NCBI RefSeq assembly: GCF_002159335.1 | Contig: NZ_NFHP01000002.1 | Location: 186,001-250,000 of the forward strand | Length of the DNA stretch: 64,000 nt | Reading direction: 5' to 3' | Source of the DNA: Collinsella sp. An7 | GTDB lineage: Bacteria; Actinomycetota; Coriobacteriia; Coriobacteriales; Coriobacteriaceae | Shown: positions 19,194 through 35,740 of the stretch, piece after piece | Position numbering within the stretch: position 1 is the stretch's first letter | Layout of the letters: every line of letters starts with the position of its first letter | Program-made: the position numbers and the translations under genes | The notes under the pieces: generated by a model | What the model saw: only the letters and a program-made list of their open reading frames with translations | What the model was told of the DNA's origin: nothing | The model's database searches: none

Positions 19194-20705
19194 ATGGGTA
19201 AGCCGGGAGCGTTTCTTACGCACGACCGCGCGGTGCACCAGCTGCGCCCCGTATCCGAGCGCACGCGCGACTACGATCCGCTCTACGTGGAGCTTGGCGA
19301 GGCGGAGCGCCGCGTGCAGGCGAGCCGCTGCATGATGTGCGGCGTGGCCTTCTGCCAGACCGGGCACCCCTTTGGACGGGCGCGCTCGAGCGGATGCCCG
19401 CTCCACAACCTCATCCCCGAGTGGAACGACCTCGTGTGGCGCGGACGCTGGGCCGAGGCCGCCAAGCGCCTGGCGCTGACCTCGCCGCTGCCCGAGTTTA
19501 CGAGCCGCGTGTGCCCCGCCCCCTGCGAAGCCGCGTGCAACCTCGGCTCGGTTGAGGGCGAGCCGACGGCCATCCACGATACCGAGCGCGCCATCTCCGA
19601 CTGGGAGTGGGCCCACGGCGGACCGGCCCCCTTTACCGCCGGCGAGCTCGGGCCGGACGCCCCGCGCGTGGCCGTGGTGGGCTCGGGCCCAGCGGGGCTC
19701 GCCTGCGCCTGGGAGCTCGCGCGGCGCGGCTGCCGCGTTGATGTGGTGGAGCGCGCCGACCGCGCAGGGGGCCTCCTTATGTACGGCATCCCCAACATGA
19801 AGCTCGAGAAGAGCGTGGTGGACCGGCGCGTCGAGCTCATGCGCGAGCGCGGCATCGCCTTCCGGCTCGAGACGGACGCCACCGACCCAGCGGTCGCCGA
19901 GGAGCTTTTGAATGCGTACGACGCCGTGGTGGTTGCCGCCGGTGCACGGAACGCGCGCACACTTGCCGTGCCGGGCATGGACGCCTCGGGCGTGGTCCTT
20001 GCCCTCGACTACCTTACCGAGGCAACGCGTGCGCTCTTGGACGGCCGCGAGAGCGCCCTCAGCGCAGCGGGGCTCGACGTGGTGGTCATTGGCGGGGGCG
20101 ACACCGGCAACGACTGCGTGGGCACGGCGGTGCGCCAGGGGGCGCGGAGCGTCCGGCAGATCGAGGTCATGCCCGAGCCGCCGGCCGAGCGTCTGCCCGG
20201 CAACCCCTGGCCCGAGTGGCCGAACGTCCGCAAGACCGACTACGGCCAAGAGGAGGCGCAGGCGCTCATGGGCGGCGAGATGCGCGCCTGGAGCGTGGAT
20301 ACGCTCGAGGTTCTGCTCGACGCCGACGGACAGGCGCGGGCGCTCAAGGTGGCCGACCTCGACTGGACGGGCGGGCGCGCCCAGCGCATCGCCGGGACAG
20401 AGCGGGAGCTGCCCACGCAGCTCGTGCTCATCGCGTGCGGGTTTATGGGGCCCGAGGCCAGCGTGCTCGAGGCCTTTGACGTGATGCTACCCGAGCCCGG
20501 CGCCGGCCGACCACTGCCTGTGATGACCACCGCGGGCGGGCACCGCTGCCGTCTGCGGGATGCTGCGCGTGGCGACGGCGCTGAGGCGCGGCGGGCAAGC
20601 ATCTGGGCCTGCGGAGACGCCCGCAACGGTGCATCGCTGGTGGTAAATGCCATCGCCGATGCCCTCACCTGCGCACACGAGCTCGCTGAGGAACTCGGCC
20701 TGTAG
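19194..20705 (+). CDS. gltD: glutamate synthase, small subunit (NAD(P)H-dependent)
   Basis: A 503-residue GOGAT beta subunit that passes electrons from NAD(P)H through FAD and two 4Fe-4S clusters to GltB. The N-terminal cysteine sets are visible (SRCMMCGVAFC, then CPAPCEAAC), followed by the FAD-binding loop VAVVGSGPAGLACAWELA near residue 160 and the NAD(P)-binding loop VVVIGGGDTGNDC near 295. The ATG at 19194 follows GAAAGGAACC. A palindromic repeat begins two bases after its stop codon. Paired with gltB. Confidence 0.96.
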   Translation: MGKPGAFLTHDRAVHQLRPVSERTRDYDPLYVELGEAERRVQASRCMMCGVAFCQTGHPFGRARSSGCPLHNLIPEWNDLVWRGRWAEAAKRLALTSPLPEFTSRVCPAPCEAACNLGSVEGEPTAIHDTERAISDWEWAHGGPAPFTAGELGPDAPRVAVVGSGPAGLACAWELARRGCRVDVVERADRAGGLLMYGIPNMKLEKSVVDRRVELMRERGIAFRLETDATDPAVAEELLNAYDAVVVAAGARNARTLAVPGMDASGVVLALDYLTEATRALLDGRESALSAAGLDVVVIGGGDTGNDCVGTAVRQGARSVRQIEVMPEPPAERLPGNPWPEWPNVRKTDYGQEEAQALMGGEMRAWSVDTLEVLLDADGQARALKVADLDWTGGRAQRIAGTERELPTQLVLIACGFMGPEASVLEAFDVMLPEPGAGRPLPVMTTAGGHRCRLRDAARGDGAEARRASIWACGDARNGASLVVNAIADALTCAHELAEELGL

Positions 20706-20706
20706 C

Positions 20707-20776
20707 GGTGGGAAAATGGGGACGGGTGCGTTTTTCTCACTTTTGGGAAAATGGCACCCGTCCCCATTTTCCCACC
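20707..20776. repeat. palindromic repeat of the GGGGACGGGTGC family, copy 2
   Basis: A perfect 23-bp inverted repeat: 20707-20729 (GGTGGGAAAATGGGGACGGG and TGC) against 20754-20776. The 24-base centre GTTTTTCTCACTTTTGGGAA repeats part of the arm and is shared with the copy at 35640. It starts immediately after gltD and may also end its transcription. Confidence 0.85.
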
Positions 20777-20896
20777 GTCCGCGTGAACACTCGGTTTCCC
20801 GCCCGTATCGGGCCCGGACACGCGCGCGAGCGGTGTATGATTCGGGCATTTCCGCCGCGACGCCGAGTGCGCCGCCCGCACACCGGAGGGACGCCG

Positions 20897-21772
20897 ATGA
20901 GAGTCGATCAAATATTCCACGAGGCCAAGGCTGCAGGGCGCGCGCCCGTCTCGTTTGAGATGTTCCCGCCCAAAGGCGAGCTCACGCTCGAGCGCGCCCA
21001 CACCGCCGCCGAGGCGCTCAGCGCCTGCGGGCCCGACTTTATCAGCGTGACGTGCTCGGCCGGTGGCACGGGCAATTCGAGCGCCACCGCCCAGATCGCC
21101 GCCATGATCTCGCACGACTTTGGCGTGAGCGCCGTCGCCCACCTTACGGGCATCGGCCTCACCCGGGGCGACCTTGCCGAGCGCATCGAGGCGTACCGCG
21201 CGGCGGGCGTAGAGAACGTGCTCGCGCTCCGCGGTGACCGCCCGCAGGGAGCCGCGCTGCCCGAGGGGGACTTCTCCTATGCGGCGGAGATCATCCCCGC
21301 GCTTGCCGAAGCCGGCTTCTGCGTGGGCGCCGCCGCCTATCCCGAGGGGCACATCGAGTGCGACGACCTCGCCGAGAGCATCCGGCACCTGCGGCTCAAG
21401 CAAGATGCCGGCGCGAGCTTCTTTGTGACGCAGCTCTGCTTTGACAACGAGACCATCTACCGCTTTCTCGACCTCGCCGAGCGCGCCGGCATAACCGCGC
21501 CCATCACCATCGGCATCATGCCGTTTATGGGAAAACAGCAGATCACGCGCACGGTCTTTCTGTGCGGCACATCGCTGCCCTCCCCCGTCATCAAGATTCT
21601 CGCCCGCTACGAGGACGACCCCGAGAGCCTCATGGCAGCGGGCATCGACTACGCGCGCCGCCAGCTCGAGGATCTCGCCGCGCACGGAGTAGACGGCTGC
21701 CACATCTACACTATGAACCGTCCCTCCGTCGCGCGGGCGGCGATGGCGGCCCTGCGCGGCGACGCGGCGTAA
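20897..21772 (+). CDS. metF: 5,10-methylenetetrahydrofolate reductase
   Basis: A 291-residue TIM-barrel flavoenzyme that makes 5-methyl-THF for methionine synthase. Family marks are VSFEMFPPKGE near the N-terminus (catalytic Glu), LTGIGLTRGDL, NVLALRGDRPQ and FFVTQLCFDNE. Length is typical. The ATG follows CGGAGGGACG. A TATGAT -10-like sequence preceded by TG lies at 20835-20842 and could start this operon. The next gene begins three bases after the stop, so metF, the reactivation protein and probably metH form one unit. Confidence 0.96.
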   Translation: MRVDQIFHEAKAAGRAPVSFEMFPPKGELTLERAHTAAEALSACGPDFISVTCSAGGTGNSSATAQIAAMISHDFGVSAVAHLTGIGLTRGDLAERIEAYRAAGVENVLALRGDRPQGAALPEGDFSYAAEIIPALAEAGFCVGAAAYPEGHIECDDLAESIRHLRLKQDAGASFFVTQLCFDNETIYRFLDLAERAGITAPITIGIMPFMGKQQITRTVFLCGTSLPSPVIKILARYEDDPESLMAAGIDYARRQLEDLAAHGVDGCHIYTMNRPSVARAAMAALRGDAA

Positions 21773-21775
21773 GCG

Positions 21776-22594
21776 GTGGCCGAGATGTGGCCCATGGACG
21801 CAACGGGGGTGCCGACCCCCTGGGCTCCAAGCGCAGGCGAGCACCTTGCGATCAACCGCGCCGAGGTGCTCCGCTACCTGGGCTACACGGGCCAGGAGAT
21901 GGAACCCGAGCTTGCCGACCGCATCGAGACGGTTGTTGCCACGCTTGAGGCCTCGCTGGCACCGCGGGGGGTCTGGGCGGTCTTTGCCCTCAGGGGTACG
22001 GACGGAGACGCACCGGAGGATACAGACGGCGCGCCGCCGCTTAGCCTCGACGGATCGACCGTCGAGCTTGCCGGGCGGGACATCCGCCGCCATCTTGCAG
22101 GGGCACCCTGGTGCGCCGCGTTTGCGGTAACGCTCGGCATGGACGTTGAGCGGCGACTCCGCACCGCCGGCAGCCAGCACCCGCTGGAAGCCGCCGTGCT
22201 CGACGCTGCCGCGTCTGCCGCCGTGGAAGCTGCGGCGGACGCACTCAATACCGAGGTCGAGCACCGCGCAGCCGCCGCAAACCTCCTCTGCACCTGGCGT
22301 TTTAGCCCTGGGTACGGCGACTTACCGCTCGACGCGCAGCCGGGCCTCCTCGCCGCTCTCAACGCCACGCGTCTCTGCGGTATCACCGCCACGCCCACCA
22401 ACCTGCTCATGCCCACCAAGAGCGTGACGGCGCTGGTGGGGCTCTTCCCCCAGGCTGCGGACGCTGACGGGCGGAACCAGGCGGGTCAGACGGCCCGGCC
22501 TGACGCCCGGCTCGCCTGCGCAACTTGCCGGTTTGCCAGCGGTTGCTCGCTCCGGGCCCGGGGCGAGACCTGCGGGCGCAGCGCACCTGCCTAG
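21776..22594 (+). CDS. stand-alone MetH reactivation (AdoMet-binding) domain protein
   Basis: A 272-residue protein corresponding to the C-terminal activation domain of cobalamin-dependent methionine synthase. The AdoMet-binding signature RFSPGYGDLPLD (RxxxGYG) and the following LNATRLCGITATPTNLLMP-type segment are clear. In larger MetH enzymes this domain re-methylates oxidised cobalamin using AdoMet and flavodoxin; here it is a separate polypeptide. The C-terminal tail has a four-cysteine pattern (CATCRFASGC ... C) not found in the fused domain. The start is GTG at 21776, or ATG at 21785; neither has a strong ribosome site, implying coupling to metF. Confidence 0.88.
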   Translation: MAEMWPMDATGVPTPWAPSAGEHLAINRAEVLRYLGYTGQEMEPELADRIETVVATLEASLAPRGVWAVFALRGTDGDAPEDTDGAPPLSLDGSTVELAGRDIRRHLAGAPWCAAFAVTLGMDVERRLRTAGSQHPLEAAVLDAAASAAVEAAADALNTEVEHRAAAANLLCTWRFSPGYGDLPLDAQPGLLAALNATRLCGITATPTNLLMPTKSVTALVGLFPQAADADGRNQAGQTARPDARLACATCRFASGCSLRARGETCGRSAPA

Positions 22595-22819
22595 CCGGAC
22601 GCGCCCGCAGGTGCCTGGCGGCACACCCCACGTCGCGCGGCCGCACCGTTGCGCCTAAAAACGGTGCACGTCGCCGCGAGCGCACCATATCGCACGGGGA
22701 CTGAGCCTGCTGGTCGGCAGGACACCCGCAATGCAAACGGATGCCCGGCACGGTATGCTACCCCGTACACCGATCTTCTCCTTGAGTTGACGCGGATCTT
22801 CCAGACCGAAGGAACCCTT

Positions 22820-25414
22820 ATGACCGACACCGCTACCACCGTGCTCGCCCCGCTCACCAGCCGCCTTGCGGCGGGCGAGGCTTACCGTCCGCGCACGCTC
22901 GACGCCCTGCGCATCGCCGACGGCGACCTGCGTGCTGTGCTCGAGGGCAAACGCCACCTGCTCTTTGACGGCGGGATGGGCACCATGCTCCAAGCAGCGG
23001 GACTCAAGGCCGGCGCCGCGCCCGAGCTCCTCAACCTCAGCGACCGCCAGGCCATCGAGCGCGTGCACGCCGCCTACGTCGAGGCCGGCGCGGAGGTGAT
23101 CACCACCAACACCTTTGGCGCCAATGCCCTCAAGCTCGGTGACGCCGCGCAGGTGGAGGAGGTATACGCGGCGGCTGTCGCGGCCGCACGGGCTGCGGGA
23201 GCGCGCTACGTTGCGGGCGATATCGGGCCGCTCGGCGCGCTGCTGCGGCCGCTCGGCACGGTGAGCTTTGACGAGGCGTACCGCGAGTTTGCCCGCATGG
23301 CGCGCGCCGCCGAGGAGGCCGGGGCGGATCTCATCGTCATCGAGACCATGACCGACCTCGCCGAGATGCGCGCTGCGGTGCTCGCCGTAAAGGAGCAAAC
23401 GCGCCTGCCCATCTTTGCCACCATGACCTTTGAGGCGGACGGGCGCACCTTCCTCGGGACCCCGCCCGAGGTGGCCGCCGTAACGCTCGACGCGCTCGGG
23501 GCCGATGTCATCGGCATCAACTGCTCGCTCGGCCCGGCCGAGATTCGCCCCTTTGTGCAGCGCATGCTCGGCGTTACCGCCAAACCCGTCATGGTGCAGG
23601 CCAACGCCGGTCTCCCGCATGTAGAGGACGGCCAGACGGTCTACAGTATTGGGCCCGAGGAGTACGCCGCCGCGGTGGCCGAGATGGTTACCGACGGGGT
23701 CGGCGTCATCGGCGGGTGCTGCGGAACGACGCCCGCCTACACCGAGCTCCTTGCCCGCATCGTCGCCGGGTGCACACCGCAGACGCGCACTGAGCGCCCC
23801 GACTTTACCTGCGCGAGCGCCCAGCGGCTCGTGTGCCTCGCCGAGGGCACCCGCCAGGTGGCCGTCATCGGCGAGCGCCTCAACCCCACGGGCAAGAAGC
23901 GCCTGCAGGCAGCGTTGCGCGCCGGCGACATGGACTACGTGGTCGGCCAGGGCATCAGCCAGCAGGAGCAGGGAGCAGACGCGCTCGACGTTAACGTAGG
24001 GCTCCCCGGCCTCGACGAACCGGCTACCATGGAGCGCGTGAGCGAGCAGCTGCAGGCGAGCGTCGTCTTGCCGCTGCAGTTCGATTCCACCGAGCCCGCC
24101 GCCATCGAGGCGGCCGTTCGTCGCTACGCCGGCAAGCCGATCATCAACTCGGTGAACGGCTCGGCAGAGAGCCTTGCCTCCGTGCTCCCGCTCGCCGCGC
24201 ATTACGGCTGCAACGTCATCGGACTCACCCTCGACGAGCAGGGCATCCCCGAGACGGCGGAGGCGCGCCTCAAGATCGCCGAGCGCATCGTGCGGGAGGC
24301 CGAGCACTGGGGTATCGGGCGCGAGCGCATCCTCATCGACTGCCTCGTGATGACCGTCTCCACCAACCAGCATCAGGCCCAAGAGATTCTCCGGGCCGTC
24401 CAGCTGGTGCACGACCGGCTCGGCGTGCGGTGCGCCCTCGGCGTCTCCAACGTGAGCTTCGGCCTGCCCGCGCGCGAGCTCCTCAACGCCACCTTCCTTG
24501 CCGCCGCGCTCGGCGCCGGGCTCGATGCGCCCATCATCAACCCCGGCTCGGAACGCTACATGGACGTTATCCGCAGCTTCCGGGTGCTCAATGCCGAGGA
24601 CGAGGGGTCGTCCGCCTATATCGAGCGCTACGCCGGGCAAACAGACCCCTACCGCGTGGCGGCCGATGTGGCAGCGGGCAAACTGGTGGCGAGCGACAAC
24701 TCGGCAGGCGCCGCGGCCAAGACGCCAACGCAGGCAGATACCCCGGCAGCAGGCGCAGCGGGCGCTGATGGCTCGCCGGTCGACACCGCCGACCAGCACG
24801 AGGCCATCCGCCACCTCGTGGTGACGGGACGCCGTGGCGAGACCGCCCGGGCGTGCGAAGAGCTGCTCGCCACCGTTGAGCCCCTAGAGCTCATCGACGG
24901 CTACCTCATCCCCGCACTTGACGAGGTCGGGGCGCTCTTCGATCGCGGCAAGCTTTTTCTCCCCCAGCTCATGGCATCCGCCGAGGCGGCGCGCGCCGGG
25001 TTTGACGTGATCCGCGCCGCGCTCCCCGAAGCATCTGCCGCAGCCAAGGGTGCCGTCTGCCTCGCCACCGTTAAGGGGGACATCCACGACATCGGCAAAA
25101 ACATCGTCAAGATGCTCCTCGACAACTACGGCTACGAGGTCTTTGACCTTGGACGCGACGTTGAGCCCGAGGCGATCCTCAGCTGCGTGCGCGAACACGG
25201 CATCCGCCTGGTGGGACTCTCCGCCCTCATGACCACAACCGTTGCCAACATGGCCTCAACGATCGAGCTCCTCAAGCGCGAGATGCCCGGCGTTACGATC
25301 ATGGTGGGCGGCGCCGTGCTCACGCCCGACTACGCCCGCCAGATCGGTGCCGACTACTACGCCAAAGACGCCGCCGAGTCGGCCCGCATCTGCGAGGAGG
25401 TGCTCGGCGCCTAA
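22820..25414 (+). CDS. metH: cobalamin-dependent methionine synthase lacking the activation domain
   Basis: An 864-residue enzyme that transfers the methyl group of 5-methyl-THF to homocysteine. Order of domains: homocysteine-binding barrel (LFDGGMGTML near 50; zinc ligands in GINCSLGP and GGCCGTT), pterin-binding barrel (INSVNGSAES), cap domain and Rossmann B12 domain with DxHxxG (Asp754, His756 in KGDIHDIGKN). It ends straight after the B12 domain; the reactivation domain of the usual 1200-residue enzyme is supplied by the gene at 21776. A short Ala/Thr-rich linker near 630-655 precedes the cap. GAAGGAACCC precedes the ATG. Confidence 0.96.
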   Translation: MTDTATTVLAPLTSRLAAGEAYRPRTLDALRIADGDLRAVLEGKRHLLFDGGMGTMLQAAGLKAGAAPELLNLSDRQAIERVHAAYVEAGAEVITTNTFGANALKLGDAAQVEEVYAAAVAAARAAGARYVAGDIGPLGALLRPLGTVSFDEAYREFARMARAAEEAGADLIVIETMTDLAEMRAAVLAVKEQTRLPIFATMTFEADGRTFLGTPPEVAAVTLDALGADVIGINCSLGPAEIRPFVQRMLGVTAKPVMVQANAGLPHVEDGQTVYSIGPEEYAAAVAEMVTDGVGVIGGCCGTTPAYTELLARIVAGCTPQTRTERPDFTCASAQRLVCLAEGTRQVAVIGERLNPTGKKRLQAALRAGDMDYVVGQGISQQEQGADALDVNVGLPGLDEPATMERVSEQLQASVVLPLQFDSTEPAAIEAAVRRYAGKPIINSVNGSAESLASVLPLAAHYGCNVIGLTLDEQGIPETAEARLKIAERIVREAEHWGIGRERILIDCLVMTVSTNQHQAQEILRAVQLVHDRLGVRCALGVSNVSFGLPARELLNATFLAAALGAGLDAPIINPGSERYMDVIRSFRVLNAEDEGSSAYIERYAGQTDPYRVAADVAAGKLVASDNSAGAAAKTPTQADTPAAGAAGADGSPVDTADQHEAIRHLVVTGRRGETARACEELLATVEPLELIDGYLIPALDEVGALFDRGKLFLPQLMASAEAARAGFDVIRAALPEASAAAKGAVCLATVKGDIHDIGKNIVKMLLDNYGYEVFDLGRDVEPEAILSCVREHGIRLVGLSALMTTTVANMASTIELLKREMPGVTIMVGGAVLTPDYARQIGADYYAKDAAESARICEEVLGA

Positions 25415-25663: not shown

Positions 25664-28600
25664 TCACCCCCGTCCTATGCGGCCGACACCCCGGCCGCTC
25701 ACGATCTGGTCGTAGAGGGCGCGCGTCTTGGGCTCGGGGATCGCGCGCTCCTGCCGTTTGAGGCGCTCGAGATGCGCGCGGTAGAGCTCCACAACCTCGC
25801 GGCGCCGCCCACCAAGCTCGTACACGCGCATCGCCATGCGAATCACGTCCTCGCGCATCGGCGTTTCCGCAAGCGCCGCCTCGACCATCCAGCCCGCCGT
25901 GGAAAGGTCCTCCTCGCCGATCGCCGTCTCGGCGCCGCGCAGCATGCAGTCGACAAACTTGGTCCGAAACGCCTCTCGCATCTGCATAAAGTAGTCGGAG
26001 CCGGCTGCATCCGGCACATAGAGCGGACCGGCGTAGAGCTGCTCGAGCTTGAGGCACGCGTCAATGATGTTTGGCGCCGTGATCCCACGGCGCTTCAGCA
26101 ACACCTCGCGGGCAATCAGGTCAAAGCGCATGGCGTCCGAAACCACGTACTCCGCGTTAAACGCCACGCCCTCGCCCTGCACGATGAGGTACTGCGGCCC
26201 GCTCTTCTTCTGCCCAAGAGCACGGCGAAGCACCGAGAGCGTTGAGTAGAGGCTGTTGCGGGCATGGTCGTAATCGTAGGTGGGCCAGAACTCCTCCTGC
26301 AGGGCGCTGCGCTTGACGAAGGCCCCGGGCGCGATGGCAAGGCGCGCCGCTACAACGCTTGTCTTTCGCCGGCGCCACAACGCGCTCGTAAGCACGTGTC
26401 CGTTGCGCTCAATCTTGAGCCCGCCAAAGAGACGGATGGTCACCTGTCCTAAAACCGTCTTCTCGGCATCGCCGACCACCTCAAAAAGCCGCTCGCCATC
26501 GCGGGACGCACCGTCCGAGAAGAGATACCGGCCCTGCACCTGCTCGGGCAGCAGGCGCACAAGCGAGGACGCCTGCTTGCCCAGAGCACGGAGCGAAAGC
26601 CGTGCCGCAAGGCGAATGGTCGGGTCGAGGAGCTCCGTGCGATGCAGCGAGAACCAAGCCGAGAGCTCGGCATCAAAGCGCACCACCGCAAGGCTCAACG
26701 CCTCGGCCCATGCCCGCGCAGGCGAGCACGGCGCGTGTGACAGGTCGAGAAGCTCCGCCTCTTCGCAGAGCGCCGCCCGCGAGGTGTTGCAAAGATGCGT
26801 CGTGCGCTCCAGAAGCGTCGCCTGCTCGAGTACGAAACGCAGGCGTTTATCGGCAAGCTTGAGTACCTGCTGCGCACGAAATCCCGCGTTGATCATCTGG
26901 TCGAGCCCCAGGAACTGCCATCCCTCAAAGACCAGGCAGAAGAGCTGAAGCGCCTGATCGGAGGTGCGAACCGCAAGTGTTCCCGCATCCACGAAGGCGC
27001 GCTCGTCGCTCAGGGGCATCCCGGCATAGATACGCCGTACCGCCAAGACGAGCCGTACCAGCACGACCACGGGGACGAGATTTCGCTCCCGCAGCACCTC
27101 GAGAGAGGCGGCGAGACGGTCATCCCGCTCGTCGACCCCTGCAAAGCTCCCGCTCAGCACCTCGGCCATGAGCTCGGTCATGCGTGCAAAGATATTTGGG
27201 AGCGCCACGGCCACATCTTCGACCTCGCCGCCCTCACCCTGTGTTCGCGAGATGGCTGCCCCATCGATGCGGCCGGGCATCGGCTTGCCCTCGAACATCG
27301 CGCGCATGAGTCTTACAAAGTCCCGAAGGCACTGGGCCGTCTCGCTTGGGCGGCGCACCTCATTGCGGTAGGAGATATCAGGCAGGCCAATCCCCGTGCA
27401 CGAGGCCCAAACGCCCCGCAACGCACTGGCTACGGCCCAATCGTCGGGAGAGATATCGCGCTCTATCTCGTCGGCGCTGATGCTGAGGCACATCGCCATG
27501 CGGCGCGCCGTCTTGAAATCTCCCAGCGTGAGCGAGGCGGTGTAGCGCGCGAGCACCACCCCGATCGTGGGCTCGGCGTCGGGCTCTTCCAGCTCGAGGG
27601 AAGACCCCAGACGTGCGATGTACCTCCCCTGGCCCGCCATCGTAAACGCCACGGGAAATTGCCCCATGATCTCGAGCGTCTCGGTACGGCCCAGCTCCTC
27701 TTGCGCAAGGGCAACGGCCCTGTCGACGCGCCCCGCCTTCATCAAGGCCCGCACGGCGCGCGCCGGCAACCCGGGAATCGCCTCGGCTACCATCTTGCGC
27801 ACAGCCGCAAGCGCCTCATACGAGCTCCCCACGCACGAGAAGGTCCGCGCCGCCGCGTCGAGGCCAAAGAGCGGATAGTCGTGCGTCAGACGCACCTGCA
27901 CCTCGCGCGAGAGCGTAACGCCGCACATCTCCATCTCCGCCAGCTTGCCTGAGCCCATAAGCAGCATCATGCCCGCGCCGCGCAGCGTATCAGGAGCCAC
28001 GGTTAGCAGCTCCTGCCAGGCATCACGGTAGAGCGTCTCGGCGTACGAATCGAGCACCGCGGGCTCCGTTCCCGCCTGCCACACCGCCGAGGAAAGGGAT
28101 GCCACCAAAGCGGGGATTCCCTGCGTCAGACCATATACATCGAGGTCGCCGGCAATGGAGAATGTCCGCATCCACGCTGCGTACTCACGAGGGTGGACAC
28201 GGAGCGCTTGCGCCCCGATGCGCGCGGCATCGCCCAGGGCGCTCAGCAGCGCTCGGTTGCCCGGCGTACAGGAGAGCGCCATCTCGTACCCCTCCGCTCG
28301 AAGGCTCCTCAGGCGCCCCACAAGGGTCTCCATCGCCTCCTCGTTGCTATCCGGGACGTTGTCAACGGCAATAAGCGGGTGCAGCTTTGCCGGGAGCTCA
28401 GCCTCGCAGGTATCGAGCGCCGCCAGCAACTCCTGAATCTCCATCCCTGCCGCATCCACGGCCTTTGCGTACCCGCACCCCGGGTCGCTGCGAATCTCGT
28501 CGGCATACTGCAGCAGCAGCGCCGTCTTGCCAAATCCCCGCGGTGCCGCGACGATGACAATGCCCGCATTCCTACCCTGCTTGACCAGATCGCGCAGCAG

Positions 28601-28744
28601 CTCCACGCGGCGCACGGTAAAACTTTCCCCCATGGGCAAGCGCGGCGGTTGGGGTGACCGCCCATCGCGCTTTCCCACCTGCGTTGCGGTTTGCTCGCCT
28701 GCCTTGGCAATTATGTTCTGCGTCGCGCCTTCTCGTGTCTCCAT
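25664..28744 (-). CDS. large SARP/BTAD-type transcriptional regulator with ATPase domain
   Basis: A 1026-residue regulator. Residues 67-74 (APRGFGKT) form a Walker A motif in a STAND/AAA-type NTPase domain, followed by a long helical region resembling MalT-type sensor repeats. The last 270 residues hold an OmpR-like winged helix (VTIRLFGGLKIERNGHVL, then LWRRRKTSVVAARL) and a bacterial transcriptional activator domain (DYDHARNSLYSTLSVLRRAL onward). The domain order is inverted relative to classic SARPs, which have the DNA-binding domain first. The ATG at 28744 follows GGAGGGG; an alternative ATG lies at 28753. Its upstream region carries two arrays of 11-bp-phased heptamers, so autoregulation is likely. 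The inducer is unknown. Confidence 0.85.
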   Translation of the reverse strand: METREGATQNIIAKAGEQTATQVGKRDGRSPQPPRLPMGESFTVRRVELLRDLVKQGRNAGIVIVAAPRGFGKTALLLQYADEIRSDPGCGYAKAVDAAGMEIQELLAALDTCEAELPAKLHPLIAVDNVPDSNEEAMETLVGRLRSLRAEGYEMALSCTPGNRALLSALGDAARIGAQALRVHPREYAAWMRTFSIAGDLDVYGLTQGIPALVASLSSAVWQAGTEPAVLDSYAETLYRDAWQELLTVAPDTLRGAGMMLLMGSGKLAEMEMCGVTLSREVQVRLTHDYPLFGLDAAARTFSCVGSSYEALAAVRKMVAEAIPGLPARAVRALMKAGRVDRAVALAQEELGRTETLEIMGQFPVAFTMAGQGRYIARLGSSLELEEPDAEPTIGVVLARYTASLTLGDFKTARRMAMCLSISADEIERDISPDDWAVASALRGVWASCTGIGLPDISYRNEVRRPSETAQCLRDFVRLMRAMFEGKPMPGRIDGAAISRTQGEGGEVEDVAVALPNIFARMTELMAEVLSGSFAGVDERDDRLAASLEVLRERNLVPVVVLVRLVLAVRRIYAGMPLSDERAFVDAGTLAVRTSDQALQLFCLVFEGWQFLGLDQMINAGFRAQQVLKLADKRLRFVLEQATLLERTTHLCNTSRAALCEEAELLDLSHAPCSPARAWAEALSLAVVRFDAELSAWFSLHRTELLDPTIRLAARLSLRALGKQASSLVRLLPEQVQGRYLFSDGASRDGERLFEVVGDAEKTVLGQVTIRLFGGLKIERNGHVLTSALWRRRKTSVVAARLAIAPGAFVKRSALQEEFWPTYDYDHARNSLYSTLSVLRRALGQKKSGPQYLIVQGEGVAFNAEYVVSDAMRFDLIAREVLLKRRGITAPNIIDACLKLEQLYAGPLYVPDAAGSDYFMQMREAFRTKFVDCMLRGAETAIGEEDLSTAGWMVEAALAETPMREDVIRMAMRVYELGGRRREVVELYRAHLERLKRQERAIPEPKTRALYDQIVSGRGVGRIGRG

Positions 28745-28823
28745 GGCTCCCATCCCCTCCGATTTCCACGGTATGTGAGGGATGGACGGCATTCGCAAAC
28801 AAGTTGGGGCGTGCAGACTGTTC

Positions 28824-28863
28824 GGTCAGACCCCGGTCAGATTCTGGTCAGATATTGGTTAGA
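28824..28863. promoter_or_regulatory. four heptamer repeats at 11-bp phase, probable SARP operator 1
   Basis: GGTCAGA occurs at 28824, 28835 and 28846 and GGTTAGA at 28857, each separated by four bases. Direct heptamers every 11 bp are the known operator layout for SARP-family proteins. The array lies 80-120 bases upstream of the SARP-like gene start at 28744. Confidence 0.7.
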
Positions 28864-29067
28864 CCGCCCAACATCAACCATCTCTCACAAAGCCGCAGCT
28901 CATGGCACTGACTGACCGGAATTTCGATTATTCACACCGCGATACCCCCGCGTGATTCCTATAGTTTTTAATAACACACCGATTTTTTACGCACGTTTAC
29001 CGATGCTTTCTGGTCATGGCATCATCATTCGTGGTAGGAACGATATTTAGATAAATAACACCCCTTG

Positions 29068-29096
29068 GGTTAGATTTTGGCCAGAATTTAGTTAGA
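29068..29096. promoter_or_regulatory. three heptamer repeats at 11-bp phase, probable SARP operator 2
   Basis: GGTTAGA at 29068, GGCCAGA at 29079 and AGTTAGA at 29090 repeat the same heptamer and the same 11-bp spacing as the first array, in the same orientation. The array lies about 130 bases upstream of the tRNA-Leu(TAA) gene. The 200 bases between the two arrays are A/T-rich (28910-29060) and hold no gene. Confidence 0.65.
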
Positions 29097-29189
29097 CCCG
29101 TCGGCGTCGCTCGGTATCACGACTTCATCACATTTGCGAGGGGCATGCCATGGTTAAGCCCTATCCAGCGAGCAGTGGGCGCGGCGCCC

Positions 29190-29216
29190 TTGCCGCCGGC
29201 GCGCATCTGCTAGACT
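29190..29216 (+). promoter_or_regulatory. candidate promoter of tRNA-Leu(TAA)
   Basis: TTGCCG at 29190-29195 and TAGACT at 29211-29216, the latter preceded by an extended -10 TGC, lie just upstream of the tRNA. The spacer is short (15 bases), so the extended -10 may carry the activity. Confidence 0.4.
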
Positions 29217-29226
29217 ATTGGCTCGC

Positions 29227-29311
29227 GGGGGCGTGGCGGAATTGGCATACGCAGGAGACTTAAAATCTTCGGCCTTCGGGATTGTGGGTTCGAGTCCCAC
29301 CGCCCCTACCA
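29227..29311 (+). tRNA. tRNA-Leu (anticodon TAA)
   Basis: The 85-base gene has a 7-bp acceptor stem (GGGGGCG with CGCCCCT), D-arm with AATTGGC, anticodon stem GGAGA/TCTTC around loop CTTAAAA (anticodon TAA), a class II variable arm, T-arm GGGTTCGAGTCCC, discriminator A and encoded CCA. It reads UUA/UUG codons. Confidence 0.95.
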
Positions 29312-29627
29312 GCATCTTTGCAACGATATATAGCTCTTGGGTAGGTTCGGCCAGGGATAATTCCCTGGCCCATACCTTCGTGACGGGGCATGCGTTAGCT
29401 CAGGCTCGCCCTCGAGCGAAGCCTAGTTCTCTGCGCCTCTGGCTGGAGCGAGCTTTAGGGTAGAAGCCCGCTGCGGGCGATGTTAGAATCGGGTTATCTT
29501 TTTTGGATGCCAGTCGCCACCCCGGCAAACCGATCTTCCGCCGCGGGATGACAGGCGCTCTGGGTACAGACGCTCCCGCAGCAAAGGTGGGAGCTTTGGA
29601 AATATGACCTCAAAGGGGGCAACAACC
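29312..29627 (+). other. structured non-coding leader upstream of the PTS IIB gene
   Basis: No gene is present. Several hairpins stand out: GGCCAGGGA/TCCCTGGCC with a four-base loop at about 29351-29372, GCCCGC/GCGGGC-type near 29466-29478, and GCGGGA ... TCCCGC enclosing GGCGCTCTGGGTACAGACGC near 29541-29578. A TTTTTT run lies at 29500-29505. An extended -10 (TGTTAGAAT) at about 29482-29490 could start a 130-base leader. I could not match it to a known riboswitch class. Confidence 0.4.
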
Positions 29628-29912
29628 ATGAAGAAGATCGTGCTTGCCTGCGGCGCAGGCGTCGCGACCTCCGCCGTCGTAGCTCAGAAGGTTTCCGCGC
29701 TGCTCGACGCGAACGGCCAGGCCGATGCGTACGAGATCGTCCAGTGCGCCGTGGGCGACGCGAAGGACGCGTGCGCCGATGCCGACCTCCTGATTGCCAC
29801 GACCGTCGCGCCCGAGGGCCTCTCCTGCCCGTACGTTAACGGCGTGCCCTTCCTCACCGGCATCGGCCGTCCGGCAGCGGAGCGCGAGGTGCTCGAGGCG
29901 CTCGGCCTCTAG
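29628..29912 (+). CDS. PTS galactitol-type EIIB component, orphan
   Basis: A 94-residue phosphocarrier of the lactose/cellobiose-galactitol IIB fold. The phosphorylated cysteine is Cys9 in KIVLACGAGVATSA, with the following phosphate-binding loop. In a complete system it receives phosphate from IIA and passes it to sugar entering through IIC. No IIA or IIC gene is adjacent; it stands alone between two tRNA-Leu genes. GGGGG lies 8 bases upstream of the ATG chosen; an ATG 24 bases earlier lacks the family start. Either it serves an EIIC encoded elsewhere or it is a regulatory remnant. Confidence 0.85.
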   Translation: MKKIVLACGAGVATSAVVAQKVSALLDANGQADAYEIVQCAVGDAKDACADADLLIATTVAPEGLSCPYVNGVPFLTGIGRPAAEREVLEALGL

Positions 29913-30677: not shown

Positions 30678-30723
30678 GTTCCAAGGATAGAAATCCGTGC
30701 GGACACAAAGCGCGCATGAAAAC

Positions 30724-30761
30724 GGGGCGGGTGCCATCGCCTGCACGATGGCACCCGCCCC
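30724..30761 (-). terminator. strong Rho-independent terminator of the SurA-like gene
   Basis: A perfect 16-bp stem (GGGGCGGGTGCCATCG with its complement) around a 6-base loop, followed on the minus strand by GTTTTC. It lies 42 bases past the SurA-like stop codon. The GGGGCGGGTGC arm resembles the GGGGACGGGTGC palindrome family. Confidence 0.7.
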
Positions 30762-30802
30762 AATCAGATCACATGCTGCTTAGGTGCCAGCGCGCCCTCG
30801 CC

Positions 30803-31981
30803 CTACTCGTACACGCCGTAGAGCGTCAGGTTGCAGCCCGCGTAGAGCCCGTTGACATAGTCGGTCCACGTCTGCTGTGCGGCGCTCGCCGTTTCGTAGT
30901 AGTCCTGGTAAGCCACATAGAACGCGGCCGTAGCCTGCGCGTAGGTTGCCGTCTTACCGTCAAAGTTCGCCCCGTCGATCGCGGCGTACATGTCGCCGTC
31001 GGTGCGCGCCCACGTACCGGTCTCGGCATCCCACTCGTCACCCAGAAGACCGATGATGTAGGTCGCGTAGTCGGCCGAGGAGGCGTTCTCGTCGCCATCG
31101 GCGGGAGCAGTCGGCTGGGTCGGGGCGGTCATAGACGACGCATCGGGCACGATCTGCTCATAGAGCTTGTTGATGAGCGCATTCGTGCGCACGATCTCGC
31201 GCGCCTGGTCCTCGTCGATCTGGTACTGCTCGGCAAGCGTCTCAAAGTCCGACACACCGAGCGTATCCTCGGCGTACTCGGCCATCTCGTCCTCCGAGAC
31301 CTCGATGCCGCGCTGCTCGGCATCGGCCACCAGCAGCTCGTTGCGCACGTCGGAGATGACAACCTCCGCCGAGGGCACGGTGTAGGTGCCGTCGTCGTTC
31401 TTGGCGGCCTCGAGGCTGTACTGCCCCTCGATGGCGTCGCGCACGGTCATGGTGCGCTCCGCACCGTCGCAGGTGTAGCGGGCGAGCACCCGGTCGAGCT
31501 GATCCTCGGTAACGGTTGCGCCACCAGCGCCGCCCGTCTGCGTAAAGCCGCCCGAGCCCACAAAGTATCCGAGGATGGCCGCAAAAATCACCGCCACGAT
31601 CGCCCCGGCAACCATGAGCAGGATGCGCGAGCGCGGAGCCGGGGTATCCCCATCGCCGGCAGACGCATCGGCGTCGGGCGCAGGCTCGGCAGCGTCCTCG
31701 ACCTCGTCCTCAGTCTCGTCATCGTCCACCTCGTGCTCGTCGGCGGAATCGTCCGCCTCGGAAGCATCCTCAGCCGCCGGCTCGTCCGCGACCTCGCCAT
31801 CAGCCGCCTCGTCGGCACTCTCCGAGGCGCCAGCACGGCGGGCGATGTCCTCGGCAGACGGCCCTTGCATAAGCTCGACCTCGTTCTGGGGCAGGTCATC
31901 CGGCACGTCGGAGCGGCCTATGATCTCAATGCCCTCGATGTACTCGCGATCCTCGTCGTCCCTCTTCTGCATCAGACCCAT
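30803..31981 (-). CDS. membrane-anchored protein with SurA-like chaperone domain
   Basis: A 392-residue protein: a cytoplasmic N-terminal part of about 115 residues that is strongly acidic (long Glu/Asp/Ala runs), one membrane helix (ILLMVAGAIVAVIFAAILGY, about 120-142), then an extracytoplasmic region with repeated helices resembling the SurA/PrsA N-terminal chaperone domain (EDQLDRVLARYTCDG, then VSEDEMAEYAEDTLGVSDFETLAEQYQI). No parvulin catalytic motif is visible. It may assist folding of exported proteins. The ATG at 31981 follows AAGGGAG. A strong terminator follows. Family assignment is moderate. Confidence 0.6.
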   Translation of the reverse strand: MGLMQKRDDEDREYIEGIEIIGRSDVPDDLPQNEVELMQGPSAEDIARRAGASESADEAADGEVADEPAAEDASEADDSADEHEVDDDETEDEVEDAAEPAPDADASAGDGDTPAPRSRILLMVAGAIVAVIFAAILGYFVGSGGFTQTGGAGGATVTEDQLDRVLARYTCDGAERTMTVRDAIEGQYSLEAAKNDDGTYTVPSAEVVISDVRNELLVADAEQRGIEVSEDEMAEYAEDTLGVSDFETLAEQYQIDEDQAREIVRTNALINKLYEQIVPDASSMTAPTQPTAPADGDENASSADYATYIIGLLGDEWDAETGTWARTDGDMYAAIDGANFDGKTATYAQATAAFYVAYQDYYETASAAQQTWTDYVNGLYAGCNLTLYGVYE

Positions 31982-32182
31982 ATCGACTCCCTTTCCGTCG
32001 ATGCGCGGGCGCACCCACGTGACCCCCGCTCCCCCGGAGATCGCTTCGTTACCGTTCGCAGCAACTTACTCAGCCGCACTCCGCCCGTCAGGCAAGGGAG
32101 CGGCCGCCCCCCATCGGACACACACCGCACATGCGCTGCGCGCCCGCAACGCCACGCAGCCGCCCCTGCGGACGGCACGCGC

Positions 32183-33268
32183 TTACGCCAGGTGCGTGAT
32201 CACCGCGTTGGCAAACGCCGCCGTGCCCACGGCACCCTCGGCACTACCCGTCTGGGCGAGGCGCACATCCGCCGTCACGCTTGTACCCTCTGCAAGCGTT
32301 GCCGTCACGGCGGCTCGCACGCGCGCCGCCGCCTCGGTCTCGCCCAGGTGGTCGAGCATCATGGCCGCCGAGAGAATCTCGGCCGTGGGGTTGGCAAGGT
32401 CGCGCCCGGCAATGTCCGGCGCCGAGCCGTGCGTGGCCTCAAAGACGGCGCAATCCGCCCCGATGTTGGCGCCGGGTGCCATGCCGAGCCCGCCCACGAG
32501 CCCCGCGCACAGGTCGGATACGATGTCGCCGTAGAGGTTGGGCAGCACGAGCACGTCAAAGCGCGTCGGATCCTGCACGAGCCCCATGCAGCAGGCGTCG
32601 ACGATCTTGTCCTCAAAGGCGATATCGGGGTAGAGCGCCGCCACCTCGCGCGCCACGCGCAAAAAGAGCCCGTCGGTTGCCTTCATGATATTGGCCTTGT
32701 GCACCGCCGTGACCTTGCGGCGGCAGTGAGCGCGCGCGTACTCAAAGGCGTACGTCACGATTCGGCGCGACCCCTCCTCCGAGATGGGCTTGACCGAGAT
32801 GGCCGATCCGGCGCGGAACGGCCGCTGCCCGCTCGCCTCGACCAGCCGGGCGAGCTCGGCCACCTCCGGCGCATCCGGGGCAAACTCAATACCCGCGTAG
32901 AGATCCTCGGTGTTCTCGCGCACGATCACCAGGTCGACATCGCGAAAGCGCGAGCCGTCGCCCGGCAGCGACCGGCACGGCCGCACGCACGCATAGAGGT
33001 CGAAAGCCTGGCGCAGCGCCACGTTAACGCTGCGAAAACCCGTCCCCACCGGCGTGGTGACGGGCCCTTTGATGGCCACGCCCAGCTCGCGCACAAGCTC
33101 GAGCGTCTCGGGCGGGAGCGGCGTACCGACGCACTCGATCTGGGCGGCGCCGGCCTCGGCCACATGCCATACGATCTGCGCACCCGAGGCGTCGACCACG
33201 CGCCGCATGGCCGTGGTGATCTCGGGGCCGATGCCGTCTCCGGGAATGAGAACCACGTCGTGAGCCAT
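32183..33268 (-). CDS. NAD-dependent isocitrate dehydrogenase (IDH/IPMDH family)
   Basis: A 361-residue decarboxylating beta-hydroxyacid dehydrogenase. It begins VVLIPGDGIGPEIT and has VRENTEDLYAGIE, the phrase typical of NAD-dependent isocitrate dehydrogenases, then KANIMKATDGLFL, the metal site DACCMGLVQDP ... NLYGDIVSDLCAGLVGG and ATHGSAPDIAG. Homo-isocitrate or tartrate dehydrogenase activity cannot be excluded from sequence; 3-isopropylmalate is less likely because no leuBCD neighbours occur. GAGG lies 7 bases before the ATG. It starts 3 bases after the HEAT-like gene stops, so both are in one transcript. Confidence 0.88.
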   Translation of the reverse strand: MAHDVVLIPGDGIGPEITTAMRRVVDASGAQIVWHVAEAGAAQIECVGTPLPPETLELVRELGVAIKGPVTTPVGTGFRSVNVALRQAFDLYACVRPCRSLPGDGSRFRDVDLVIVRENTEDLYAGIEFAPDAPEVAELARLVEASGQRPFRAGSAISVKPISEEGSRRIVTYAFEYARAHCRRKVTAVHKANIMKATDGLFLRVAREVAALYPDIAFEDKIVDACCMGLVQDPTRFDVLVLPNLYGDIVSDLCAGLVGGLGMAPGANIGADCAVFEATHGSAPDIAGRDLANPTAEILSAAMMLDHLGETEAAARVRAAVTATLAEGTSVTADVRLAQTGSAEGAVGTAAFANAVITHLA

Positions 33269-33271
33269 GGG

Positions 33272-33973
33272 TTACTCCTCGTCGTCGGCGTCGTCCGCAT
33301 CGTCGCGCGGGGCGACGCGCGTGCGCTTCTTGGGATCCTTAAGCTTAAAGCGCTTGACCAGCAGGTCGTAGATCTCGGCCGAGCGACTCTTGATAAAGGC
33401 ACCCTTGCCGCTCTGCGCGTCAAACTGCAGGCGGCCGGCAAGCTCCTCGGCAACCTCGCCGGCGATCTTGCCCTCAGCGAAGGTGTGGAGGCAGGCGAGC
33501 ATGTCGCGGTACTCAAGGTCGCCGTGATAGCACTGGATGGCCTCATCGAGGATGGGCCACACCTTCTTGGAGCGGCCGCGCTCCGAGGCGCCCCAGGTAA
33601 CGAGCAGGTTAAAGGCCGAGAAGCGCAGCGTGGACGAGAGCTCGTCAAAAAGCGCCGCCTCGGCACCCTCAAACGCCGCGCCGACCTCCTTGGCATGCTC
33701 CGGCACGAGGCAGGTGAGGGCATCGAGCACCTCCCAACGGGTCTGTGCCTCGGGGCGGTAGAGTGCGTCGATGAGCGCGTCGATGTGCGGCGCGAGGAGC
33801 TCGGCGTCCTGAGCGGCAAGGAGTGCCACCACGCGCGCGGCAAACTGCCGCTTGCGGCGGCTCGCACTCGACAGGTCCTCGACGAGCGCGTCGAGCGCCG
33901 AGCTGTCCTTCTCGACGAGCTCGAGCTGTGCGCGCTCCTCGTCGTTCATCTCGTGCTGTGCGGTTTCTGCCAT
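33272..33973 (-). CDS. HEAT-repeat-like conserved protein
   Basis: A 233-residue all-helical soluble protein. The central region has repeated amphipathic helix pairs (SASRRKRQFAARVVALLAAQ, then HIDALIDALYRPEAQTRWEVLDALTCLV) that resemble HEAT/ARM repeats, suggesting protein-protein contact. The C-terminus is Lys-rich and then acidic (DDADDADDEE). Specific function unknown; similar genes in this class are annotated as hypothetical. The ATG at 33973 has GGGAG 8 bases upstream; a GTG at 33982 is less likely. Neighbours are the dehydrogenase downstream and a membrane protein upstream (12-base gap). Confidence 0.65.
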   Translation of the reverse strand: MAETAQHEMNDEERAQLELVEKDSSALDALVEDLSSASRRKRQFAARVVALLAAQDAELLAPHIDALIDALYRPEAQTRWEVLDALTCLVPEHAKEVGAAFEGAEAALFDELSSTLRFSAFNLLVTWGASERGRSKKVWPILDEAIQCYHGDLEYRDMLACLHTFAEGKIAGEVAEELAGRLQFDAQSGKGAFIKSRSAEIYDLLVKRFKLKDPKKRTRVAPRDDADDADDEE

Positions 33974-33985
33974 AGAATCCACTCC

Positions 33986-34480
33986 CTATTTCCGCCCGGC
34001 GCGGCGTCCACGGCGCGCACCGGTACCGTTATCGTTCTGCTTGCGTCCTGCGTCGGACGTGTGCTGGGCCGGGGCCGAGCCACCCTGCCCCGGGGCCACC
34101 GAGATGAGGTCGGGCTCACGCTCGCCGGCGCGCCTGCGGCGCCGTACCTCGGCCTTGCGCGCCGCGTCGACCCCACGCTGTCCCCGGTTGCGGTTAAAGA
34201 ACCGGTCGAGCAGACGCCAAGGCCCCACCGACTCGCCAAAGCCCATCTTAAGGCCCACAATCGAGCCCATGAGCAGGCCGAGCGGCGTGGCATAGAGCAA
34301 GGGCAGAAGCGTCAGCACCGCGGTCAGCACGACGCAGATGAGGATGGCGGCGAGGTTGTAGAGCCAGTACGCCCGGGCATCGACGGCCCGCTCGCCCCAA
34401 TGCTCACCGATCGTAAAGCCGATGTAGACGCTAAAGACAAAGAGCAGGGCAAACAGGATCACAAAGGCGGTGTCACCCAT
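33986..34480 (-). CDS. conserved membrane protein of unknown function
   Basis: A 164-residue protein with three hydrophobic segments (about 5-27, 38-62 and 65-82) followed by a basic cytoplasmic tail rich in Arg (RRRRRAGERE, then GARRGRRAGRK at the end). The first helix is followed by EHWGERAVDARAYWLYN. I recognise no family. It starts 6 bases after the upstream dehydrogenase gene stops and is followed by the HEAT-like gene, suggesting a four-gene operon. Confidence 0.6.
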   Translation of the reverse strand: MGDTAFVILFALLFVFSVYIGFTIGEHWGERAVDARAYWLYNLAAILICVVLTAVLTLLPLLYATPLGLLMGSIVGLKMGFGESVGPWRLLDRFFNRNRGQRGVDAARKAEVRRRRRAGEREPDLISVAPGQGGSAPAQHTSDAGRKQNDNGTGARRGRRAGRK

Positions 34481-34486
34481 CGGGCG

Positions 34487-35614
34487 CTACTCCCCGTGAT
34501 GGCCGTGGCAACACCCGTGGCCACCCTCGCCATGCCCATGACCCTCGCCGTGGCAGCAGCCCTCGCCATGCCCGTGGCCCTCGCCGTGGCAGCACTCGTG
34601 GTCGCCGTCACCGTGATCGTGATGATGCCCGCCGCAGCACTCATGCTCGCCCTCGCCATGATCGTGGCCGCAGCCGCAGCCGTCCTCGTGCTCGGAGGTA
34701 TAGCGCGACCAATCGAGCCCAGCCGCAATAGCCGCCTCTTCCTCCTGGTAGAGGATGGTGATGGCCTGGGTGCCGAGCTCCGCACCACCGATGGCGTCGA
34801 GCATGTCGTAGAGGGTAAAGGCCACATCGGCCCCGGGCAGGGCGATATCGCGCTCCTCAGCCTCGGCGAGGGCAAGGCTGATGTCCTTGATAAAGTGGCG
34901 AACCTTAAAGCCGGGCTTCCAGTCGCCGTCGATGGCCTTGGGGCCGAGCTGCTCAAGAGCACCCGAGGCACCCGTGCCCGTAAGGATCATCTCGCGGGTC
35001 GCGTTGAGGTCGAGGCCCTCCTGCTGGGCAAAGGCGAGCGCGTCGGCCATGCCCACCATCGACGCGGCGAGCGCCACCTGGTTGGCGAGCTTGGCGCTCT
35101 GGCCCTTGCCCGCGCCGCCAAAGCAGAAAATCTTGCCCGTAAAGGTCTCGAGCAGGGCACGAACGGGTTCGAGGTCGCGCTCGGTGGCACCGGCGATGGC
35201 CGTGAGCGTGCCCGCGATGGCCCCCGCCTCGCCGCCCGTCACGGGGCAGTCAAACGCGGTGCGCTCCGACACGGCGGCGGCACCGGCGATATCGCGCGCG
35301 AGCGCCGGCGAGGAGGTGGTGAGGTCGATGAGGATGGCGCCGGGCTTGGACGCAGCGAGGATGCCATCGCCCGCGAGGTAGAGTTCCTCAACGTCCTCAG
35401 GGTAGCCCACCATGGTAAAGACCACGTCGGCCCCGCGCACGGCCTCGGCCGGGCTCTCGGCCCACGTGGCGCCGCGCTCAACAAGGCCCTGGGCCTTGGA
35501 AGCGGTGCGGTTGTAGACGGTCAGGGGATAGCCGGCGTCGAGGATGTGCCCGGCAATGGGCGCACCCATGATGCCGGTCCCAATAAACGCAACGGACTGC
35601 TTCGTATCAGCCAT
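34487..35614 (-). CDS. 3-hydroxyisobutyrate dehydrogenase family protein with His/Cys-rich tail
   Basis: A 375-residue NAD(P)-dependent beta-hydroxyacid dehydrogenase. The Rossmann loop VAFIGTGIMGAPIAGHIL is at 9-26, the substrate motif FDCPVTGGEAGA near 120 and the catalytic Lys in GKGQSAKLANQV near 170. The enzyme part ends near residue 300, as usual. The last 69 residues contain 19 His and 10 Cys in repeats such as CCHGEGHGHGEG, a metal-binding tail not normal for the family. AAAGGAG precedes the ATG. The natural substrate (3-hydroxyisobutyrate, tartronate semialdehyde or succinic semialdehyde) is not determined. Confidence 0.9.
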   Translation of the reverse strand: MADTKQSVAFIGTGIMGAPIAGHILDAGYPLTVYNRTASKAQGLVERGATWAESPAEAVRGADVVFTMVGYPEDVEELYLAGDGILAASKPGAILIDLTTSSPALARDIAGAAAVSERTAFDCPVTGGEAGAIAGTLTAIAGATERDLEPVRALLETFTGKIFCFGGAGKGQSAKLANQVALAASMVGMADALAFAQQEGLDLNATREMILTGTGASGALEQLGPKAIDGDWKPGFKVRHFIKDISLALAEAEERDIALPGADVAFTLYDMLDAIGGAELGTQAITILYQEEEAAIAAGLDWSRYTSEHEDGCGCGHDHGEGEHECCGGHHHDHGDGDHECCHGEGHGHGEGCCHGEGHGHGEGGHGCCHGHHGE

Positions 35615-35639
35615 GTGATAACTCCTTTAATCGTCGGAC

Positions 35640-35740
35640 TGAGAATATGGGGACGGGTGCGTTTTTCTCACTTTTGAGAATATGGGGACAGGTCGCATAT
35701 TCTCAAAAGTGAGAAAAACGCACCCGTCCCCCTATTCTCA
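35640..35740. repeat. 101-bp palindrome of the GGGGACGGGTGC family, copy 3
   Basis: Arms of 45 bases (35640-35684 and 35696-35740) are complementary at 44 positions around GGGACAGGTCG. Each arm itself contains TGAGAA ... TTCTCA complementarity. It includes both the GGGGACGGGTGC and the GGGGACAGGT variants, so it may be a nested pair of units. It reaches the last codon of the degV gene at 35738. Confidence 0.9.

Follow-up and report, generated by a model that had tools for sequence, protein, structure and literature searches.

A SARP-type regulator gene and two heptamer arrays

We analysed a stretch of 64 kb from a contig of Collinsella sp. An7 (referred to as the window; the genome comprises 2.37 Mb in 18 contigs). 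On the minus strand it carries the gene of a large regulator, P0001 (25664..28753), for which ATG at 28753 or 28744 most likely is the start rather than TTG at 28798. P0001 consists of an N-terminal STAND-like P-loop ATPase region, a helical-repeat middle, seen in the structural model, and a C-terminal winged helix followed by a BTAD domain. The P-loop (Walker A), APRGFGKT (28523..28546, minus strand), was assigned from sequence and conservation; the form APxGFGKT is conserved among the P0001 family. An AAA_16 match was below the curated cut-off, and the profile matches to MalT and Avs4 were weak. The winged helix (PF00486-like) and the BTAD (PF03704) were located by Pfam and structure match at 25703..26350, minus strand (residues ~775-1032 of 1044). 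PF03704 scored 28.5 bits at a cut-off of 22.1; PF00486 reached 19.4 bits, which is below its curated cut-off of 26.2. In an AlphaFold2 model (pLDDT 84) the C-terminus matched AfsR in the transcription-initiation complex (8k60, 8hvr; TMt 0.75-0.77) and also EmbR, in both cases over the whole SARP domain. The PF03704 score and the structure matches agree with the order that defines a SARP, an OmpR-type winged helix and then a BTAD. The domain is not at the N-terminus as in the classical members. Because it is C-terminal and the ATPase N-terminal, we designate P0001 as a SARP-type or SARP-domain protein, not as a classical SARP. A PDB sequence search with P0001 yielded no direct match and an NCBIfam search no match.

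P0001 is the only BTAD protein in its genome. An ortholog, one each, was present in 60 of 60 family genomes (split in one genome), and homologues were found in 239 of the 248 genomes of the class Coriobacteriia. Beyond the family, strong similarity was limited to the wHTH-BTAD part. A contig profile search with the P0001 family alignment returned 51 named loci, with P0001 alone as a query none; the named homologues are from Collinsella, Enorma and Candidatus Coprousia, which places the window in a Coriobacteriaceae genome. Two orthologs are broken by a stop (L146 and G017:C68:17029-19964), possibly by loss of competence control or by assembly errors. Convergent to the regulator gene and adjoining it is a methionine/one-carbon cluster (19194-25414, plus strand) with an oxidoreductase containing Fer4_20, MTHFR, a Met_synt_B12-like protein and a B12-dependent methionine synthase. 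A 1653-aa open frame at 30716-35677 (plus strand) without Pfam match probably is antisense to minus-strand genes in high-GC DNA.

Upstream of the regulator gene the plus strand carries two arrays of heptamers. Array 1 (28824..28863), reversed relative to the regulator gene, consists of four GGTYAGA heptamers in 11-bp steps (starts at 28824, 28835, 28846 and 28857); three read GGTCAGA and one GGTTAGA. Array 2 (29068..29096) is 244 bp away from array 1 and has three heptamers, again in 11-bp steps (starts at 29068, 29079 and 29090), which in order read GGTTAGA, GGCCAGA and AGTTAGA. A three-heptamer pattern with up to three mismatches matched three times in the 64-kb window, each time within arrays 1 and 2, and not once in each of 100 dinucleotide-preserving shuffles of the window. 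This confirmed that the 4 + 3 heptamers at 11-bp phase are real; none is expected by chance. A preliminary description of this DNA had listed four and three heptamers in a single orientation and exact 11-bp phase, next to a SARP/BTAD regulator with a C-terminal DNA-binding domain and an ATPase domain. The pattern search and the shuffles bore out the former, the BTAD score above the Pfam cut-off and the P-loop near the N-terminus the latter. The assignment of array 2 as GGTCAGA-type held for phase and orientation, but two of its three heptamers are one base off the consensus and the array ends at 29096.

Array sites and the genes behind them

The pair GGTYAGA-N4-GGTYAGA occurred 26 times in the genome (14 exact matches, 12 with one mismatch), compared to none in a reversed control; the genome-wide search for the 7+4 pattern that had been proposed earlier thus had a strongly positive outcome. 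These 26 pairs group into about a dozen sites, which have the sense orientation and for the most part lie 60-130 bp upstream of genes. Such sites precede comEA-comEC, yraN-comM-dprA, recA-recX and rpsF-ssb-rplI. They also precede prmC with sua5 behind it, nfo, the gene of a SpaA-repeat surface protein, AbiEi/REase-like genes and the Shango defence system (SngA, SngB). Among these, the SpaA-type adhesin (L039) and prmC (L034) have no known link to transformation. A sequence-only profile, R1, was built from nine arrays. It recovered the known sites, which for those nine is circular, and added a palindromic double array, the minus arm of which lies ~80-140 bp upstream of the Tad/Flp pilus operon cpaB-tadZ-cpaF-tadB-tadC. 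In Micrococcus luteus, Flp pilus genes are reported to be essential for transformation (PMC8467076). All main transformation operons that were found in the genome carry an array site. A site common to the uptake pilus, ComEA/ComEC, DprA, RecA and SSB is what characterizes a competence regulon, and it is conserved in relatives. Judged by these positions, the arrays define a predicted natural-transformation (competence) regulon. A function of the repeats as DNA uptake sequences was rejected, the sites being too few (~17).

Geometry of the sites

The arrays face their gene and the number of heptamers differs between sites. In a typical long array, heptamers at 0, 21-22, 32, 53 and 64 bp are complemented by degenerate copies at 11 and 43, which gives about seven in all with a step of ~10.7 bp. 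Nine nucleotides past the last heptamer a strict TANNNT was present at 5 of 12 own arrays, and at 8 of 12 when two of the three conserved bases were accepted. Each of the other distances from 3 to 29 gave at most one strict match. Some own arrays have no clear -10 at 9 nt (comEA, L032; nfo, L036; L035). In SARP promoters the repeats are 11 or 22 bp apart and the 3' repeat is 8 bp from the -10 (PMC10936776). The spacing observed here is of this kind, 11 bp with 10/21 steps and TANNNT at 9 nt when GGTYAGA is counted or at 8 with GTYAGAT; the difference from the published 8 nt arises because the heptamer frame was set differently. In addition, at 6 of 12 own arrays (L028, L029, L036 and L039 among them) and at comM promoters of some relatives, the first heptamer is preceded at 2-3 nt by an element TGASCTGC (up to one mismatch). 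This element is suggestive of an inverted half-site.

Conservation in relatives and other families

The strict GGTYAGA pattern is almost private to the own genome and species. When relaxed cores were used and orthologous promoters were read, phasing and -10 distance proved to be kept in relatives and the heptamer letters to change. The recA, comM and comEA promoters of nine relatives had same-strand spacing peaks at 11, 21, 43, 53 and 64 bp, with almost none on the opposite strand; for TANNNT at 9 nt the counts were 7 vs 0. Several com promoters of relatives retain only degenerate heptamers. In one relative, G050, sites stand at an AbiEi-like gene, a REase-like gene, yraN-comM and the Shango system; the prmC site recurs in G006. 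For the tad promoters of relatives, a strict count of heptamer cores gave no spacing peak; degenerate phased copies were seen by eye, clearly only in G080.

G080 belongs to another family of the same order. CGCTKGA-type heptamers in 11-bp phase stand before its recA, comEA, comM and tad genes, with 51 phased pairs in forward and 0 in reverse orientation. Read by eye, recA has ~12 copies, and 9 nt separate the last copy from TATACT (recA), TATGCT (comEA), TACCAT (comM) and CATACT (tad). The upstream region of the G080 BTAD gene itself carries no array; hence, the link between protein and arrays is weaker outside the family. For families beyond G080 single promoters were read by eye; in G126, GCAAGG-type repeats are found 9 nt before TATGCT. 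The recognition-helix region is LYSxLS-like where the motif is GTYAGA-type and FYSxWS where it is CGCTKGA/GCAAGG-type. This parallel change, which is confounded with phylogeny, supports P0001-type proteins as candidate binders.

The promoter of the regulator gene

Between the presumed -10 of the regulator gene, TACCGT (28768..28773, minus strand), and the first heptamer of array 1 there are exactly 50 bp, and relatives have kept this distance. In 37 non-redundant family loci, reversed heptamers were 50 bp from TANNGT in 8 and 49 bp in 5, followed by further steps at 60/61 bp (8 loci), 71/72 bp (5) and 82/83 bp (7); other distances mostly occurred once or twice. Several relatives have a second array beyond the first, at 242 bp (L116, L149, L161) or 228-234 bp (L118, L150). 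A TANNNT 9 nt downstream is absent at both window arrays. A consensus sigma-70 scan of 28700-29650 had no match, which is uninformative for SARP-type promoters as these lack a -35.

Because array 1 is in a class-I-like position relative to the regulator's -10, we infer autoregulation. From this geometry, the window arrays most likely are autoregulatory and not tRNA/PTS operators. The autoregulation probably is positive and possibly aided by the distal array 2, as in competence switches that reinforce themselves. The preliminary description had recognized SARP-type repeats, which stands, and had allotted one array to the tRNA-Leu/PTS side, which does not. Array 2 indeed lies 130 bp upstream of tRNA-Leu and shares its orientation. 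However, it has no TANNNT at 9 nt, and a second array recurs at a similar distance from array 1 in several relatives, within the upstream region of the regulator. An operator for tRNA-Leu/PTS genes is very unlikely on these grounds and was rejected. The proposal that the adjacent BTAD protein is the likely binder gained support: it is the sole BTAD protein, its C-terminus is AfsR/EmbR-like and the arrays are conserved in its promoter region.

Proposed mechanism and alternatives

We consider it highly probable that the neighbouring SARP-STAND regulator uses the arrays as operators and is the master activator of natural transformation in this Collinsella-type bacterium. The sequences provide the basis for this: the sites with their orientation, phasing and -10 distance, the target genes, the conserved geometry, a single BTAD protein and its predicted fold. 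At target operons the C-terminal SARP domains would bind in a head-to-tail row along 2-7 heptamers that are spaced by ~10.7 bp. The protomer closest to the -10 would lie 9 nt before it, where a -35 would otherwise be, and would recruit RNA polymerase in the manner of AfsR. At the regulator gene the nearer window array, reversed and beginning 50 bp upstream of the -10 (about -63 to -102), would mediate class-I-like autoregulation. The STAND-like ATPase part may gate assembly. We infer that P0001 binds the sites and acts as an activator, with oligomerisation controlled by its ATPase, and that the cells can be transformed.

A different protein might bind the arrays and P0001 merely be one more target gene. 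This would fit the BTAD upstream region of G080, which is without array even though recA, comEA, comM and tad have them. Yet direct heptamer repeats of 11 bp at ~8-9 bp from a -10 are a SARP signature, the genome offers no second BTAD protein, and motif and recognition-helix region change together, albeit confounded with phylogeny; we regard another binder as unlikely. Alternatively, the regulator could serve a DNA-damage/recombination (SOS-like) response, with com genes included through common recombination functions. Among the targets, recA-recX, ssb and nfo (endonuclease IV) are compatible with this, and actinobacteria possess with PafBC a LexA-independent damage response of a SARP-resembling mechanism (PMC10936776). 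But excision repair does not involve comEA-comEC, dprA, comM or the Tad pilus operon, and recA possesses, downstream of its heptamer promoter, a distinct LexA-box-like promoter, so that the array looks like an additional input. An SOS-like function thus is quite improbable.

A dispersed repeat (mobile or promoter cassette) with no role in regulation would account for the 70-bp arrays at L028 and L030, which are 86% identical overall with the likeness reaching into the spacers, and for a palindromic core with similar flanks that is common to two sites. This reading of the arrays is hardly credible in view of the sense orientation of the sites upstream of genes, nearly all core transformation operons included, and of a phasing and -10 distance that are conserved across families despite the change of heptamer, at varying heptamer number.

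Beyond the operator function of the arrays for the adjacent regulator, we tentatively put forward a wider reading, which is possible rather than probable. P0001 could represent a transformation master regulator common to the class Coriobacteriia and outside the known families of competence regulators, i.e. an ATP-gated STAND protein the C-terminal SARP domains of which polymerise head to tail on 2-12 phased heptamers up to RNA polymerase. Its own gene would be autoregulated through the reversed array, 50 bp away from the -10, and its targets, which comprise the uptake pilus, DNA import, recombination and an anti-phage system, would be switched on jointly.

Comparison with known regulators

AfsR from Streptomyces coelicolor is a large SARP with STAND/NOD and TPR domains, which targets afsS via a 22-bp box. 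P0001 resembles AfsR in the SARP fold (TMt 0.75-0.77), a putative STAND-type ATPase in the same polypeptide, 11-bp direct repeats beside the -10 and, by analogy, the presumed recruitment of RNA polymerase. It differs by the C-terminal position of the SARP domain, by sites of 2-7 heptamers (up to ~12 in another family) and by competence genes as targets. The combination of a SARP with a large ATP-binding part is shared with the SARP-LAL regulator PimR (Streptomyces). Heptameric direct repeats are reported to matter for binding of SARP-LAL regulators of the PimR type (PMC5930380, PMC3367932). Unlike P0001, SARP-LAL regulators have the SARP half at the N-terminus and control secondary metabolism. 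MalT has, like P0001, an N-terminal P-loop of the APxGxGKT type (a weak profile match) and a C-terminal DNA-binding domain; it is an ATP-dependent oligomer on arrayed boxes. MalT possesses a LuxR-type HTH instead of wHTH plus BTAD, however, and its targets are maltose genes. With ComK, SigX and Sxy(TfoX)-CRP, P0001 by analogy would share the principle that one regulator serves uptake pilus, ComEA/ComEC, DprA, SSB and RecA, whereas protein family and type of binding site are unrelated. ComK is positively autoregulated.

The literature we searched, mostly papers available without subscription, covers competence regulators of other phyla as well as SARPs that control antibiotic production; SARP-type control of transformation was not found in it. 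Nor did this literature contain a report on natural transformation or a competence regulator in Coriobacteriia (Collinsella, Eggerthella and relatives). Probably, the regulator is a master switch for DNA uptake that was previously undescribed in these bacteria. Collinsella and Eggerthella, like their relatives, are abundant in the gut. With a candidate switch and a readable operator code, DNA uptake, its signal and its genes become directly testable, and in gut species which are hard to manipulate, forced regulator expression could serve as a genetic tool. Mutant screens are still being used to map how comEA-comEC is regulated even in Micrococcus luteus, the actinobacterial model (PMC8467076). 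If true, SARP-type activation would extend from antibiotic production to DNA uptake, and operators of 2 to 12 repeats would constitute a natural series for the study of activator assembly.

Observations at individual sites

The Shango array is present in two species (G000:C4:14945-15005, L029; G050:C1:60492-60532, L249), in both with a small gene coming first. Its position suggests that defence may be switched on together with DNA uptake. Genes that are AbiEi/DUF559-like or MTES_1575-REase-like repeatedly follow arrays (L028, L037, L038, L262 and L264 in the own genome; L240 and L244 in G050). Possibly, these are new competence-associated nucleases or parts of toxin-antitoxin systems. The upstream regions of recA (L031, L084-L112) contain a second promoter-like stretch on the downstream side of the heptamer promoter; its palindrome, TTGAC...CGAACAGCTGTTCG or a close variant, resembles a LexA box. 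The LexA-box-like element of the recA promoter is CGAAC-N4-GTTCG, and the arrangement suggests a dual control of recA by competence and SOS. Finally, head-to-head arrays with similar flanks, in the own genome of the form TCTAACC-N4-GGTTAGA, were found at L254 (G000:C1:340804), L258 (G000:C11:274112) and L238 (G048:C66:5283). One arm of these arrays faces a region without an obvious gene, perhaps that of a small RNA.
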